From NCBI RefSeq assembly GCF_020622065.1, contig NZ_JAHRYQ010000001.1, forward strand, positions 1,302,001 through 1,366,000: a stretch of DNA of 64,000 nt, in the 5' to 3' direction. Positions within the stretch are counted from its first letter, which is position 1. Each line of letters opens with the position of its first letter. Positions 40,704-47,511 of this stretch are shown here, piece by piece. The notes under the pieces were generated by a model. It did not search any database. It was not told the origin of the DNA and saw nothing but the letters and a program-made list of their open reading frames with translations. Position numbers and translations under genes: made by a program. The DNA comes from Geothrix sp. (lineage in GTDB: Bacteria; Acidobacteriota; Holophagae; Holophagales; Holophagaceae).

Positions 40704-40884
40704 GGATGCTCCGTGGAGAGATCGTTGGATCGTACCTCCGGGAGGGGCCGCGCGGAAGCGTTCCTTGTGATTCCTGCAACAAAGCCGCGAATTGATGACC
40801 TTCCAGGAAAGATCGCGTAAGACGAGGTGTAAGCTGGGGGCAATCAGCCCAAAAACCAGGGCACTCAATTGAAGGAGTGTGGCT

Positions 40885-43137
40885 ATGAGTCGTAAGCAGG
40901 AAGCCCTCGACTACCATTCGCAGGGACGAAAGGGAAAGATCGAGGTCGTCGCCACCAAGCCTTGCTCCACGGCCCGCGATCTGGCCAACGCCTATTCGCC
41001 GGGTGTGGCGGAACCCTGCCTGGAGATCGAGAAGAACCCCGAGGATGCTTACAAATACACCGCCAAGGGCAACCTGGTGGCCGTGATCTCCAACGGCACC
41101 GCCGTCCTGGGCCTGGGCAACATCGGCGCCCTGGCGGGCAAGCCGGTGATGGAAGGCAAGGGCGTGCTCTTCAAGCGCTTTGCCGACATCGATGTGTTCG
41201 ACATCGAGGTCAATGAGCTGGACATCGACCGGTTCTGCCAGGTGGTGAAGGCGCTGGAGCCCACCTTCGGCGGCGTGAACCTCGAGGACATCAAGGCCCC
41301 CGAGTGCTTCGAGATCGAGACCCGCCTGAAGAAGGAGATGAACATCCCCGTCTTCCATGACGATCAGCACGGCACCGCCATCATCAGCACGGCCGCCCTG
41401 ATGAACGCCTCCGAGATCGTGAAGAAGAAGCTGAGCGACATGAAGGTGGTGTTCAGCGGCGCCGGGGCCTCGGCCATCGCCTGCGCCAACATGATGATCG
41501 CCGCCGGCGTGAAGCTCGAGAACCTGTGGCTCTGCGACACCAAGGGGCTGGTCTACACCGGCCGCACGGAAGGCAACAACAAATACAAGGACAAGTTCGC
41601 CAAGCCCAGCGAATGGCGCACCCTGGCCGACACCATCGTGAACGCGGATGTGTTCGTGGGCTGCTCCAGCAAGGGCGCGCTGACGCCCGAGATGCTCCTG
41701 AGCATGGCCAAGAACCCCATCGTCTTCGCCCTGGCCAACCCCGATCCTGAGATCGACTACCCCACCGCCAAGGCCACCCGCGACGACATCATCCTGGCCA
41801 CGGGCCGCAGTGACTATCCGAACCAGGTGAACAATGTCCTGGGCTTCCCCTTCATCTTCCGCGGCGCCTTGGATGTACGCGCATCGGAGATCAACGAGCC
41901 CATGAAGCTGGCTGCCGCCAAGGCCCTGGCCGCCCTGGCGAAGGAAGAGGTTCCGGATTCCGTGGTGAAGGCCTACTCGGGCCAGAAATTCAGCTTCGGC
42001 CCCGAGTACATCATCCCCAAGCCCTTCGATCCCCGTGTGCTGCTGTGGGTGGCTCCCGCCGTCGCCAAGGCCGCCATGGAGACCGGCGTGGCCAAGCAGC
42101 CCATCGCCGACATGCAGGCCTACAAGGAGCGCCTCGAAGGGCTCCAGGGCCGCAGCAAGGATGTGATCCGCAGCGTGGTCCACCGTGCCAAGGCCAACCC
42201 CAAGCGCGTGGTCTTCCCCGAGGGCGACCATCCGCTGATCCTCCAGGCCGTGTCCCAGATGGTGGACGAGGGCATCTGCGTGCCCATCCTCGTGGGCGAT
42301 CCCGCCAAGGTGAAGGCCGTGGCCGCCGGTCACGGCATCTCCGTGGACGGCATCGAGATCCTGGATCCGGCCACCGTGGCTTGGCGCGCAGAGGCGGAGG
42401 ACGCCTTCCTGGAACTGCGGAAGCGCCGGGGCGTCACCCGCGACGAAGCCGGCCGCAAGATGCAGGAGCGCATCTACTTCGGCGCCATGATGTGCCGCCT
42501 GGGCAAGGCCGATGGTCTCATCGCCGGCCTGACGATGTACTACCCCGACACCATCCGCCCCTGCCTCGAAGTCATCGGCACCCGCAAGGGCGTCAAGCGC
42601 GTGTGCGGCGTCTACACCATGGTGCTGAAGAACCGTGTGCTGTTCTTCTCCGACACCACCATGAACATCGAGCCCAGCAGCGAGGAACTGGCCGAGATCG
42701 CCCTGCTGACCGCGGATCTGGCGAAGGACACCTTCAACATGGAGCCCCAGGTCGCCATGCTGTCCTTCTCCGATTTCGGCAGCGTCGAGCATCCGCTGGT
42801 CCGCAAGGTCCAGAAGGCCGTGGAGATCGTCAAGGCCCAGCGGCCCGGCCTCAAGTGCGACGGCGAGATGCAGGCCGACACCGCCCTTGGCGCCGACATC
42901 CTGTCCGAGAACTACCCCTGGGTGGACCTGCCGGGTGGCCCGAATGTGCTGATCTTCCCCGACCTCACCAGCGGCAACATCGGCTACAAGCTGGTGCAGC
43001 GGCTGGCGAACGCCGAGGTCATCGGCCCCATCACCTGCGGCATGGCGGCTCCCGTCCATGTCCTGCAGCGCCACAGCGACCTGAACGACATCATCCACCT
43101 CACGGCGCTCACCGTCGTGGAGGCGCAGCAGAAGTAG
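40885..43137 (+). CDS. maeB: Malic enzyme fused to phosphotransacetylase-like domain
   Basis: The protein is about 750 residues. The N-terminal malic enzyme (about 1-420) shows [32 protein letters not shown] and the Rossmann loop [15 protein letters not shown]. The C-terminal half (about 430-750) is a Pta-like domain ([39 protein letters not shown]). It turns malate into pyruvate and CO2; the Pta part is known as a regulatory, acetyl-CoA-sensing domain in this family. The ATG at 40885 has GAAGGAG seven bases before it. A TAAGCT -10-like box lies at 40830-40835. Confidence 0.94.
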
Positions 43138-43160: not shown

Positions 43161-43182
43161 GCGGGGGCCTTCGGGCCCCCGC
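43161..43182 (+). terminator. Stem-loop after maeB
   Basis: GCGGGGGCC-TTCG-GGCCCCCGC forms a perfect 9-bp stem with a UUCG tetraloop, 23 bp after the maeB stop. No T run follows, so termination may be partial. The next gene starts soon after. Confidence 0.55.
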
Positions 43183-43219
43183 TGCTATGCTGGGAGGAAT
43201 TCACGGCTCGGGAGCGGCG

Positions 43220-43654
43220 TTGGCGGATGTGCTGTGTGCCTGGTGCGGGGCCCTGGTCGGACAGAGCGCGGCCGAGCATTCCCACGGCATCTGCCAGCCC
43301 TGCTATCAGCGGCTCCGGGGCCTTCCCGACCTCACCGAGGAGGAGCTCGACGAGCTGCCCTTCGGCGTCATCGTGCTTTCCCGGGATGGCATCATCCGCT
43401 CGTACAACCGGGCCGAGGGCGAACTTGCCGGGCGGGCACCCCGCAGCGTCCTCGGCCGGAACTTCTTCACGGAAGTGGCCCCGTGCACCTCCGTCCAAGC
43501 GTTTGAAGGCTCTTTCCGTGCGTTCTGCGAGGGGGATGAAGTCTCTCGGACTTTCCAGTTCACCTTCCGGTTTCTGGCGGGCCCGGTCCGGGTACAGATC
43601 GTCTTCCTCCACAAACAACCGGATGTGGCTGTGGCGATCCGGAAGCTGCCCTAG
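43220..43654 (+). CDS. Photoactive-yellow-protein-like PAS protein with N-terminal four-Cys motif
   Basis: From the TTG at 43220 the protein has 144 residues. An N-terminal zinc-ribbon-like piece (CAWC and SHGICQPC; Cys 6, 9, 25, 28) is followed by a PAS domain from about residue 44. That domain closely follows photoactive yellow protein: LPFGVIVL, YNRAEGELAGR, LGRNFFTEVAPCT. The chromophore Cys (89) and the hydrogen-bonding Tyr (62) and Glu (66) are kept, as is Arg (72); the PYP Thr50 and Met100 positions are Ala. Starts at 43187 (ATG) or 43229 (GTG) are also possible, but 43187 lies inside a TATGCT -10-like box. Whether it binds p-coumarate is unknown; no chromophore-synthesis genes are nearby. 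Confidence 0.72.
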   Translation: MADVLCAWCGALVGQSAAEHSHGICQPCYQRLRGLPDLTEEELDELPFGVIVLSRDGIIRSYNRAEGELAGRAPRSVLGRNFFTEVAPCTSVQAFEGSFRAFCEGDEVSRTFQFTFRFLAGPVRVQIVFLHKQPDVAVAIRKLP

Positions 43655-43673: not shown

Positions 43674-44465
43674 TCAACGCTCCAACTGCCGCATCCACGC
43701 CTGGATCTCGGGGTCGGGATCGGGGCTGAGGTGCAGGGCCATGCGCAGGTCGATGAGGGCCTGCCCGGGCTCGTCGCGCTGCAGGTGGATGAAGGCGCGC
43801 TCTTTGTGGGCCCTTGGATTGCTGGGCTCGAGGAGGATGAGGTGGGTGCCGGTCCAGAGGGCCTCCTCCCAGTCCTCCGCATGCATAAATCGCAGGTGCA
43901 GGTTCCGCACGAGGCGGACGAGGATCTGCCGGTCGGGCGCGGGGCTGAGCATGTCCCGGTGGAAGGCCACGCGGCCGGCGGTGGCGGACTTCACCAGCTC
44001 GGCTCCGCCCTCCTCGCCCACGGGGCGGCCCTGGTGGAAGGGGTCGAAGCAGAGCAGGCCGAAGTCCGTGCGCAAGGCGGCGATGAAGTGGCCCGGGAGC
44101 CTCACGCCCACGGCGTCGAACCCCATGCGCCGGGCCAGATCGATCCAGAGGATGGACAGCGAGATGGGCAGGCCCTTCCGCCGTGCGATCACGGCCGGGA
44201 GCAGCGCATTCAGTGGATCGTCGTAGGTCTCGCGGTCGCCGGTGAAGCCGAGTTCCGCAAAGAGCAGGTGGTTGAGCGCGTCCAGGGCCTTGTGGGTGTT
44301 CCAGGGCAGGGGCATGCGGCCCGCGAGGGTGAAGGCCCACTCATTGAGCTGCAGGGCGACATGGTCGGGATCGGGATCGTCCAGGGCCGGCGCCACGGCA
44401 TGCACGGCGCCCTCAGCCAGATTTCGGCACTCGGGATCCTCGCGCAGGTACTCGAGCAGGGACAT
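43674..44465 (-). CDS. SirB1-type transglutaminase-like protein with TPR tail
   Basis: The 263-residue protein has the SirB1/transglutaminase-like core: YDDPLNALLPAVIARRKGLPISLS, GVRLPGHFIAAL and CFDPFHQGR. A short TPR-like segment follows (NPRAHKERAFIHLQRDEPGQAL). Its role is not established; relatives are often near protein-release-factor methylation genes, which are absent here. Its ATG overlaps the upstream stop by one base (TGATG). Confidence 0.83.
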   Translation of the reverse strand: MSLLEYLREDPECRNLAEGAVHAVAPALDDPDPDHVALQLNEWAFTLAGRMPLPWNTHKALDALNHLLFAELGFTGDRETYDDPLNALLPAVIARRKGLPISLSILWIDLARRMGFDAVGVRLPGHFIAALRTDFGLLCFDPFHQGRPVGEEGGAELVKSATAGRVAFHRDMLSPAPDRQILVRLVRNLHLRFMHAEDWEEALWTGTHLILLEPSNPRAHKERAFIHLQRDEPGQALIDLRMALHLSPDPDPEIQAWMRQLER

Positions 44466-44959
44466 CAGCCGCGCCGTTGGATGACCGCGCGGGCCACCAG
44501 CGCCAGTGCCAGGAGCGCCAGGGCGCCATAGACCCAGCGCTGCCAGGCAGTGGTGGCCGCCTGCACCTTCTTGCCTTCTTCGGCCTTGCGGGCGTTCTCT
44601 TCCAGCGAGAGCTTGGACTGCGCCTCCCGGGCATCCTTCACGGCCTTCTGGGCGGATTCCCGCGAGGCCTGCAGGTCCTTGGAGGCCGCTTCCTGCTCTT
44701 CCTGCACGCCCAGGACCGCGGCGCTCTTCCGCGGCGGAGCCTGCTTGGGCAGGAAGGAGGCGGGCACGGCGGCGCCATCGTCTTCGTAGGAGGCAGGTGC
44801 CTGGCTGTTCTCGATGGATTCCGTCAGGAGCTGGATGTCCTCCCGCAGCGCCTGCAGCACCTGGCCCTGGCGGTGGAGCTGAGCGCCCTGGATCCAGAGC
44901 ATCACCAGCTGGAGCGCCAGCAGGGCGGGGATGGTCCATCGGAGGGTGGGGCGGCTCAT
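44465..44959 (-). CDS. Membrane-anchored coiled-coil protein (164 aa)
   Basis: The protein has a membrane helix near the N terminus (about 9-25), a central coiled coil rich in Lys, Glu and Gln (QEEQEAASKDLQASRESAQK and following), and a second helix at the C terminus (WVYGALALLALALVARAVI). No family was recognised. It sits between the SpoIIE-type phosphatase (ATGA overlap) and the SirB1-like gene, so it may be an accessory of that signalling unit. Confidence 0.65.
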   Translation of the reverse strand: MSRPTLRWTIPALLALQLVMLWIQGAQLHRQGQVLQALREDIQLLTESIENSQAPASYEDDGAAVPASFLPKQAPPRKSAAVLGVQEEQEAASKDLQASRESAQKAVKDAREAQSKLSLEENARKAEEGKKVQAATTAWQRWVYGALALLALALVARAVIQRRG

Positions 44960-47511
44960 GCGTGCTCCCTTCCCAGGATAAACAGAGTCCGGTCGTCGCG
45001 GTTCTGGGTATCGAAGGCGGCCACATCCTGGAAGACCGCTTCGCAGGCGGCCCGGGGGCTGCCGGTACCCCAGAGGCGGCGCAGCTGGTTGCCCAGGCGG
45101 CCCACACCGTAGAGTTCGCCGTCCCGGTTCATGGCCTCGGACAGGCCGTCGCTGTAGAGCACCATCCAGCCCTTGGGAGGCAGCACCCCTTCGATGACTT
45201 CCCAGTCACCGGGGCCCGCCGGGCGGAGGCCAAGGCCCCGGCCGTGGGGCGTCATTTCAGTGGAACAGTCTTCCGACAGGCCATGGAGCAGCAGCGCGCC
45301 GGGGTGCCCGGCTCGCGCCAGCCGGTAGTTGCCGGCCTCGTCCCACTCCAGCAGAACCAGGGTGAGGAAGCCCCGCTGACCCAGCAGCTGGCGCAGGGTG
45401 TGGTCCAGCGAGCAGAGGATCTCCTCCAGGCGCTGGTCCTCCCGCTGGGCGGCCTGCTCCAGAAGGGCCGTGGCCTGGGCCATGTAGAGCGCGGCAGCGA
45501 GGCCTTTGCCGCAGATGTCGCCCACGGCGGCCAGCCAGTTGCCACTGGGGCGCCGCTTGACGAAGAGCAGGTCGCCGCCGGTTTCCAGGGCGGGTTCGAG
45601 CCGCAGGGCGACCTGGAAGCCCGGGATGGGCGGCAGATGGGAGGTGATCAGGCCCTCCTGGATGCGGCGGGCCGTTTCCAGTTCCTGGCTGAGCCGCTCC
45701 TGGGCCACGAGGCGCTGGTGCATCACGGCGGTCTCCAGCACCTGGCCGGCGGCCAGGGCCACCTCGCGCAGCAGCTCGCGGTCCTCCCGGCCGTAGTTCA
45801 ACTCGGCGTATTTGCCGCCCAGCAGGACAGCGCTGTGGGGCTGGTCCCCGGCGACGATGAGCAGGAGCAGCTGGGCCTCCAGGGCGTCCACATGGGCCCG
45901 CACGCCTTCGCCCTGCTCGCGGATCCAGTCAGCCTCCTCGCTGCCCAGGCCCAGCACCAGCTCGCGGTTCTCGCGGGCGAGGCGGAGCAGGCCCGGTGGG
46001 AGCCTCAGGGGCTGGGGCGGAAAGTGCAGGCGCCGGTCATCCCGGTCCACGGCCTCGGCGGCGGGCAGGAGGATCTGCCGCTCCTCGATGGGCAGCACCT
46101 CCAGGAACTGCGGCTGGAAGGCCTCGCCCAGGGCGCGGCGCAGGGATTTGATCAGGGCCTCTTCGCTGAAGCGCTTGCGGGGCTCCCGCACGGCGCTGAG
46201 GGCGATCTCGCGGGTGCTGGAGAAGTCCCGGCGGAATCGCCGCCGGATGCCGCGGAGCAGGCGCCGCAGGGCCCACCCCAGAGGGAGCGCCAACAGGCCG
46301 ATGAGGGCTCCGGCCCAGCCGGACGGGATCGAGGAGAGGTGGGAGAAGGCCCAGGCCAGGCCGCCCAGGTAGGCCACGATCGTGATGCCGAGGATGGCCA
46401 TGTAGCTCACCCACCGCAGCAGCACCTTGCGCACATCGAAGAGGCCGTGGCGGAAGATGGCAAAGGCGAAGCTCAGGGGCAGCAGGGGGGCCGGCAGCAT
46501 GAAGATGAAGATCTGGCGGCGGAAGAGCAGGCTCTTCCCGTATTTCGCGTCGAGCAGGGTCCAGGCCACCAGGTCGAGGCAGAGCACCGCCGCCACGATG
46601 AGCGAAGGCAGCAGGGCCCGGCGCAACCGCTCGTGGGTCCGGAAAGTGCCCGCCAGGAAGAAGCCCAGGCCCGTGAGGGCGGCCACGACATAGAGCGGGA
46701 TGGGCAGGCCGAAGGCGCCCAGGGCGGCCTTGAGCATGCCCACGGGAGCCAGGCCCGCGGGTGTGCGGAGGGCGCCGTCGGTGAAGATGCCCCACAGACG
46801 GACGAAGAGGAGCCACAGGGAGAGCACCGCGAAGGTTCCGTACACGGCCTGGAGGAAGCGCCGGTTCTTGCGGAGCGCGAAGGCATGCGGGAATCGGAGG
46901 AAGAAGTGGATCCACAGCGGTGGCAGCAAGGCGATGGCGACGGCGGTCATCAGGGCGATGGCGATCCGCATGGGGATCGGCGCGTTGCCTGAGAGCGTGG
47001 CCCCCGACATCAGCAGGGCGGTGGCCGCCAGGTAGAAGAAATGGCGGGAGGTCTTGCGCTCCGGGGCCGACAGCACCACCAGCAGGCTGATGGCCCAGGC
47101 GAGGATGCCGTTCAGCAGCAGGGCCAGCTGCACCGGTTCCAGGGGCTTCACCAGGCGCAGGGGCAGCAGGATCTGGCGGCCCTGGCGCTTCACTGTGTAG
47201 ATCAGGATGGCGCCCTGGGGCTTGGAGTTGATGAAGCGCTGGGCTTTGAGCGTGCCTTCCTCAGTGGGTTCGAAGGCACGGCCCTGGATCTTCACCAGCT
47301 CATCGCCCTCGAGAAGCCCCGCCTCCTCGGCCACGCCCTCGGGCAGGATCTCGCGGATGACGACCTTCCCGTTTTCCACGACCCAGGAGCACTGGTCGTC
47401 CGAGGCGGCGTAGACCCACTGGTTGAGCGCGAAGGATCCCAGCGCCAGCGTCAGGCAGGCAAAGCTGATCCACAGCAGGCGCCAACGGATGCGTTTGAGG
47501 TAGGGATTCAT
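44956..47511 (-). CDS. PDZ-multispan membrane-SpoIIE phosphatase
   Basis: The 851-residue protein has an N-terminal helix, a periplasmic PDZ domain (about 45-120; GVAEEAGLLEGDELVKIQGR), seven or more membrane helices (about 125-430), a GAF-like linker (about 440-590) and a SpoIIE/PP2C phosphatase domain (about 610-851). Phosphatase motifs are ETGGDLLFV, VGDICGKGLAAAL, MVLYSDGLSEAM and NRDDRTLFIL. It should dephosphorylate an anti-sigma antagonist in response to an envelope or membrane cue. No STAS gene is adjacent. It leads an operon with the coiled-coil and SirB1-like genes. Confidence 0.87.
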   Translation of the reverse strand: MNPYLKRIRWRLLWISFACLTLALGSFALNQWVYAASDDQCSWVVENGKVVIREILPEGVAEEAGLLEGDELVKIQGRAFEPTEEGTLKAQRFINSKPQGAILIYTVKRQGRQILLPLRLVKPLEPVQLALLLNGILAWAISLLVVLSAPERKTSRHFFYLAATALLMSGATLSGNAPIPMRIAIALMTAVAIALLPPLWIHFFLRFPHAFALRKNRRFLQAVYGTFAVLSLWLLFVRLWGIFTDGALRTPAGLAPVGMLKAALGAFGLPIPLYVVAALTGLGFFLAGTFRTHERLRRALLPSLIVAAVLCLDLVAWTLLDAKYGKSLLFRRQIFIFMLPAPLLPLSFAFAIFRHGLFDVRKVLLRWVSYMAILGITIVAYLGGLAWAFSHLSSIPSGWAGALIGLLALPLGWALRRLLRGIRRRFRRDFSSTREIALSAVREPRKRFSEEALIKSLRRALGEAFQPQFLEVLPIEERQILLPAAEAVDRDDRRLHFPPQPLRLPPGLLRLARENRELVLGLGSEEADWIREQGEGVRAHVDALEAQLLLLIVAGDQPHSAVLLGGKYAELNYGREDRELLREVALAAGQVLETAVMHQRLVAQERLSQELETARRIQEGLITSHLPPIPGFQVALRLEPALETGGDLLFVKRRPSGNWLAAVGDICGKGLAAALYMAQATALLEQAAQREDQRLEEILCSLDHTLRQLLGQRGFLTLVLLEWDEAGNYRLARAGHPGALLLHGLSEDCSTEMTPHGRGLGLRPAGPGDWEVIEGVLPPKGWMVLYSDGLSEAMNRDGELYGVGRLGNQLRRLWGTGSPRAACEAVFQDVAAFDTQNRDDRTLFILGREHA

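Follow-up and report, generated by a model that had tools for sequence, protein, structure and literature searches.

Does the short gene between a malic enzyme gene and a transglutaminase-like gene of this Geothrix genome encode a photoactive yellow protein (PYP), and what would such a protein sense and signal, given the four cysteines that precede its PAS domain? The window (the whole stretch of DNA that was analysed, 64,000 nucleotides) belongs to a genome of 3.35 Mb in two contigs, rated 100% complete; its host is a Geothrix of the Holophagaceae, which bears out the preliminary description in taking it for a probable acidobacterium.

The gene and its parts

The features of the locus are collected in Table 1. 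The gene had at first been read from the ATG at 43187, but this start is ruled out, as relatives carry a stop after the ATG; in an orthologue of 92% identity (L008), it lies just downstream of the equivalent codon. The correct start is the TTG at 43220, given this stop, the conservation of the start codon (TTG is shared with L008 and L013, while in other orthologues this codon is ATG), and a GGAG located 6-7 nt upstream. Counted from this TTG, the three residues originally proposed to hold the chromophore, Tyr62, Glu66 and Cys89, do align with Tyr42, Glu46 and Cys69 of the Halorhodospira halophila protein (Hhal), and the VAPCT loop is intact. The alignment also bears out the reading of Ala at the positions of Thr50 (Ala70) and Met100 (Ala120); Ala at position 50 is, however, the consensus of the PYP family and no departure from it (PMC12826048).

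Table 1. Coordinates of the Cys4-PYP locus within the window, with the evidence for each feature.
Feature	Position	Strand	Evidence and remarks
maeB-type malic enzyme/phosphotransacetylase	40879..43137	+	Pfam, synteny; fixed left neighbour
GC hairpin, GCGGGGGCC-TTCG-GGCCCCCGC	43161..43182	+	Fold -23.5 kcal/mol; likely maeB terminator-type element
Shine-Dalgarno-like GGGAG	43210..43214	+	Ahead of TTG
Cys4-PYP gene	43220..43654	+	TTG start, 144 aa plus stop; start fixed by relatives
Four-Cys module, C6-x2-C9-x15-C25-x2-C28 (CAWCGALVGQSAAEHSHGICQPC)	43235..43303	+	Kept in 19/19 Geothrix Cys4-PYPs; probable zinc ribbon or knuckle, metal binding predicted
PYP (xanthopsin) PAS domain	43322..43648	+	Residues 35-143
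Tyr62 (Hhal Tyr42)	43403..43405	+	Alignment, invariant in Geothrix Cys4-PYPs; chromophore phenolate hydrogen bond
Glu66 (Hhal Glu46)	43415..43417	+	Alignment, invariant; chromophore hydrogen bond, proton donor
Cys89 (Hhal Cys69)	43484..43486	+	Alignment, invariant; thioester attachment residue, VAPCT loop
Cys103 (Hhal position 83)	43526..43528	+	Alignment; extra Cys
Ala120 (Hhal Met100)	43577..43579	+	Alignment
Transglut_core2 + TPR protein	43674..44465	-	Pfam, synteny; convergent fixed right neighbour
PDZ/membrane/SpoIIE phosphatase	44956..47511	-	Pfam, synteny; nearest signalling gene, strand opposite to PYP

Membership in the PYP family

Over 93 residues, ungapped, the gene product is 40% identical to Hhal PYP (BLASTP), in line with the 40-45% over about 100 residues first estimated. 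The PYP profile TIGR02373 (photo_yellow) scores 101.8 bits on it (E 2.2e-29 to 2.6e-29), far above the general PAS profiles (PF00989, 37.7 bits; sensory_box, 15.9 bits); the similarity is thus specific to PYP, as had been proposed, but it stays below the curated equivalog cut-off of 143.05 bits, which none of the Acidobacteriota or Gemmatimonadota genomes among those searched passes. This model misses most PYPs (PMC9664959). A PYP profile of our own, whose seeds included the Geothrix protein itself, gives 137 bits for this protein and at most 24 bits for the generic PAS domains of Holophagaceae genomes. Where the family is defined by homology and the presence of Cys69 (PMC9664959), the Geothrix protein belongs to it, the equivalents of Cys69, Tyr42 and Glu46 all being present. 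The closest solved structure by sequence is the PYP domain of R. centenum Ppr (1mzu, E 1.8e-23); the nearest named loci are from Geothrix sp. (97% identity) and G. fermentans (70% identity).

An AlphaFold2 model, built on an alignment of 51 locus sequences (pLDDT 84, pTM 0.77), matches PYP chains of the PDB with Z scores of about 16-17 (16.7) over 111-118 residues at an rmsd of 1.8-2.2, against a Z score of 12.5 for the best non-PYP PAS chain. In this model, residues 2-16 form a hairpin that contains C6 and C9, while C25 and C28 open the next helix, immediately before the equivalent of the PYP N-terminal cap. By profile, triad, predicted fold and tree (see below), the gene encodes an authentic member of the PYP family.

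Conservation and selection

Profile searches of 47 Geothrix genomes, unbiased towards the VAPC loop, find PYPs in 19. The orthologue is present in 14 of these, from 14 species; another four have five divergent Cys4-PYP genes between them, and one has a PYP without the Cys4 module. Tyr62, Glu66, Cys89 and the thioester loop are invariant in all 19 Geothrix Cys4-PYPs, and so are further residues of the pocket (in Hhal numbering, Gly29, Ile31, Asn43, Phe62, Ala67, Pro68, Thr70, Phe96 and an aromatic residue at 98). Invariant columns are enriched for pocket columns (Fisher p 2e-6), a value that is indicative only, since the 19 sequences are related. Position 100 varies among Ala, Gly, Thr, Ser, Asp and Glu and is never Met, position 50 is Ala across most of the group, Trp119 is lost, and Cys103 is kept in all 14 canonical orthologues but is absent from the divergent copies. 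For whole genes, dN/dS is 0.04-0.27 in ten pairs; the gene is under purifying selection and, being present in 14 species at these ratios, is no chance reading frame.

In Gemmatimonadota, the same searches bring up a paralogue group in which Cys69 has become Ser or Gly and Thr70 has become Ala, with Trp119 kept (L201, L204, L206-L209, L212, L213, L215-L219); judged by these replacements, its members should not attach p-coumarate. Retention of Cys69 is thus not automatic in this family.

The Cys4 module

Paired CxxC motifs joined by a short loop are a typical zinc site, and the module at the N-terminus of the Geothrix protein, by its motif, probably binds zinc. Beyond Geothrix, eight genomes of Gemmatimonadota, one of Planctomycetota and a further acidobacterial family have the Cys4-PYP architecture, mostly with longer spacings between the cysteines than C-x2-C-x15-C-x2-C; the fusion recurs in at least three phyla. 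The motif had been said to be known from other bacterial signalling proteins, and this is so within the same genome, where four further HGICxxC proteins (L147, L149, L150, L151) carry a motif of the same kind as a tail at the C-terminus of sensor-like proteins, with the consensus P[IV]CxxCxKxxDDxGYWxQ...[ST]HGICP[ED]C; the reversed pattern, searched as a control, gave 0 matches. These tails share with the Geothrix module the two CxxC pairs, the second in an HGICxxC context, but they are longer (about x30 between the pairs), lie at the C-terminus, and come without a PYP; one that was scanned against Pfam matched no significant family.

The Cys4-fused PYP is apparently a variety so far undescribed. 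In the available text of two open surveys, of 2022 and 2025 (PMC9664959, PMC12826048), the partners of PYP are PHY, kinase, V4R, MCP, GGDEF/EAL and REC domains and a Cys4 extension is not mentioned, though an earlier mention elsewhere is possible; the literature gave no match for Geothrix with PYP and none for the SHGICP motif. According to its available text, the 2025 survey counts as multidomain only proteins of more than 200 aa (PMC12826048), so that Cys4-PYPs, at 144 aa, will have been tallied under such a rule as plain single-domain PYPs.

Relationship to known PYPs

A tree of 119 columns, with PYPs of the Hhal, Leptospira and Burkholderiales types and from Myxococcota, Gemmatimonadota and Acidobacteriota, places the protein among the PYPs. 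The Geothrix Cys4-PYPs form one group (support 99/93), and all Cys4-PYPs lie on one side of a branch (97/90; 97/92 in a second tree) together with PYP-V4R and PYP-kinase proteins, labels that were assigned by reading the sequences. The Geothrix group is separate from the sampled rows of Hhal-type A, Leptospira-type B and Burkholderiales-type C, but clade A is broad as defined and the deep forks are poorly resolved over 119 columns. The proposal of a distinct PYP subfamily agrees with a separate, supported Cys4 grouping. Rooting with generic PAS domains was dropped as unreliable, the outgroup branches being far too long. A single origin of the fusion is not what the trees give: the Cys4 label changes twice on them, either by two gains or by a gain that was followed by a loss.

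Compared with Halorhodospira PYP (xanthopsin, 1NWZ/2PHY), the Geothrix protein has the same PAS fold, triad and VAPCT loop in a small soluble protein, but differs by the N-terminal Cys4 module, Ala at 50 and 100, Phe at 98, the absence of Trp119, and the lack of identifiable TAL and pCL genes. With the PYP domain of Ppr (1MZU) it shares Phe98 as well as closest sequence similarity among solved structures; Ppr, however, is a PYP-phytochrome-kinase with a C-terminal output, whereas the extra module of the Geothrix protein is N-terminal and comes without an enzyme domain. The PYP-V4R and PYP-histidine kinase proteins (as in PMC12826048), its nearest branches in the tree, likewise differ in having V4R or the kinase at the C-terminus and no Cys4 module. 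Among the other PYPs collected, five proteins from Acidobacteriota and a delta-proteobacterial MAG (L002, L024, L045, L067, L091) combine, as judged by eye, an EAL-like domain with a PYP that lies C-terminal to it; the available text of the 2025 survey lists EAL fusions with an N-terminal PYP only.

A candidate blue-light sensor and its alternatives

There is a slightly better than even case that the protein is a soluble p-coumaroyl blue-light sensor that signals via its N-terminal Cys4 module. Since the triad is conserved, a thioester-linked p-coumaroyl group and a photocycle driven by blue light are to be expected from established PYP chemistry: Cys89 would carry p-coumaroyl or a closely similar 4-hydroxycinnamoyl group, held by Tyr62 and Glu66; blue light would isomerise the chromophore, and its protonation by Glu66 would loosen the N-terminal cap. 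The Cys4 module, probably a zinc-held hairpin directly before this cap, would then move or dock, passing the signal to a partner encoded elsewhere. In Hhal PYP mutants, loss of Met100 strongly slows dark recovery, and the small residue that stands at position 100 in place of the Met of many PYPs is predicted to do the same here; like the chromophore and photocycle, we infer this slow recovery from the known chemistry of the family. Exchange experiments on Hhal PYP have shown that light signals reach the N-terminal cap (HDX work reviewed in PMC4477167), and since the Cys4 module is fused at this light-responsive element we infer a docking or output role for it, as we do the bound zinc and the partner. 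Signal transfer by single-domain PYPs is the main open question in the field, and a PYP this compact, whose responding cap bears a conserved extra module, offers a handle for pull-downs and structures. Against the blue-light reading stand the score below the TIGR02373 cut-off, the lost Trp119 and the lack of a conserved partner in the operon.

The supply of the chromophore is less easily accounted for. It had been suggested that the rest of the genome be searched for tyrosine ammonia-lyase (TAL) and coumarate-CoA ligase (pCL), and neither turned up: genome-wide, in this complete genome, the only lyase of the kind is the histidine ammonia-lyase HutH (634.8 bits, above the hutH cut-off), and the pair expected to supply the chromophore of a PYP photoreceptor was not found. 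In the other Geothrix genomes, too, there is a single aromatic lyase, at HutH level (the incomplete G024 yielded none, and in a few genomes it is divided between contigs), and no Geothrix genome has a ligase like TIGR02372, the best scores belonging to enzymes that resemble acetyl-CoA synthetases. The seven AMP-ligases of the genome comprise two of acetyl-CoA synthetase types, FadD, a FadD11-like, an Aas-like and an MbcS-like enzyme, and one unassigned. As pCL is missing from roughly two thirds of predicted pyp operons too (PMC12826048), these genes are no strict requirement and their absence is not fatal; any coumarate would be of external origin or the product of an unrecognised enzyme.

Of the alternatives, the one that best survives holds that the PYP fold is kept but p-coumarate unused, Cys89 either carrying another acyl ligand or joining Cys103 and the Cys4 module in sensing thiols, redox state or metal. 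We regard it as doubtful, if not lightly set aside: TAL and coumarate ligase are absent from the genome and the genus, the protein has six cysteines in 144 aa, one of them the Cys103 that is invariant in the canonical orthologues, and a conversion to redox function has been suggested for the Ppr-PYPs of methylobacteria (PMC9664959). However, the invariance of Cys89 is shared by Tyr62, Glu66 and the aromatic pocket, whose importance should lie mainly in binding a phenolic chromophore, and exactly these residues are missing from the proposed redox PYPs (PMC9664959); Cys103 is not found in the other Geothrix Cys4-PYPs, and the direct basis for redox sensing is the cysteines themselves.

A narrower alternative, which refines the p-coumaroyl reading and is no exclusive rival to it, takes the chromophore acid to be environmental (plant-derived or from neighbouring organisms) and activated by a general acyl-CoA ligase; photoreception would then depend on the supply of coumarate. 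Such supply has been considered for PYP bacteria (PMC12826048), and an MbcS/benzoate-ligase-like enzyme (L157) and FadD-type ligases are at hand, but as none of the Geothrix genomes encodes a ligase that approaches TIGR02372, this reading is rather unlikely. That the VAPC loop arose by chance in an ordinary PAS domain, or that the gene is a decaying pseudogene, draws on the score below the TIGR02373 cut-off and has a negligible probability, being ruled out by the gap between this protein and generic Holophagaceae PAS domains on our own profile and by dN/dS far below 1, with the position inside PYP in the tree also against it.

Geothrix is an anaerobic, non-phototrophic iron reducer. It does occur in lit cultures: a Geothrix strain without phototrophic marker genes was a lasting partner in an enrichment of phototrophic Chloroflexota (PMC10972752). 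PYP is now placed in non-phototrophic iron reducers that have none of the usual chromophore genes, where the source of the chromophore becomes testable. A wider view, which we offer tentatively, is that of a PYP lineage whose probable zinc Cys4 module on the photo-responsive cap makes it a self-contained sensor-plus-adaptor, and which in Geothrix either uses scavenged coumarate or has switched to another thioester ligand or to thiol/redox sensing, with the whole PYP pocket kept.

Two other genera of the Holophagaceae (g7, g9) have an additional aromatic ammonia-lyase next to a TIGR02372-related ligase (L111-L116, neighbouring PF00221 hits), in L111 with an adjoining acyl-carrier-like stretch. 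These pairs were rejected as chromophore genes; they look to be of aryl-polyene type, because genomes that lack PYP have them as well and because, in those whose surroundings were read, an acyl-carrier-like protein is close by.

Genomic context

In orthologue-bearing genomes whose flanks were read, maeB and the PYP gene are followed by the convergent genes for the transglutaminase/TPR protein, a membrane protein and the PDZ-SpoIIE phosphatase, in this order; the exception is G024 (L011), where neither neighbour lies within the flanks read. In Geothrix genomes without PYP, the interval between the same flanking genes is either about 50-330 bp or, where a different, lipoprotein-like gene occupies it, about 660-700 bp. 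As the site is thus empty or otherwise occupied, the PYP gene is a clean cassette at a fixed position, gained or lost within the genus, and the gap between maeB and the transglutaminase-like gene is a small integration spot. The lipoprotein-like gene, of about 200 aa, stands at the PYP site in L271-L275, L277 and L282. The strong hairpin between maeB and PYP suggests that the latter probably has its own transcript; the hairpin has no T-run, and a terminator scan found no terminator.

The first impression that the neighbours offer no partner holds: by Pfam and synteny no obvious one adjoins the gene, none is conserved in the same operon, and the convergent PDZ-SpoIIE phosphatase is the sole signalling gene nearby. 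Around the other Cys4-PYPs of Geothrix and those of Gemmatimonadota, genes called with a simple gene caller show no visible repetition. A second Geothrix Cys4-PYP (G048, L231:9355-14980) lies, as seen by eye, upstream of a bacteriohemerythrin-like gene and a gene for a large sensor protein, which may possibly form a functional neighbourhood.
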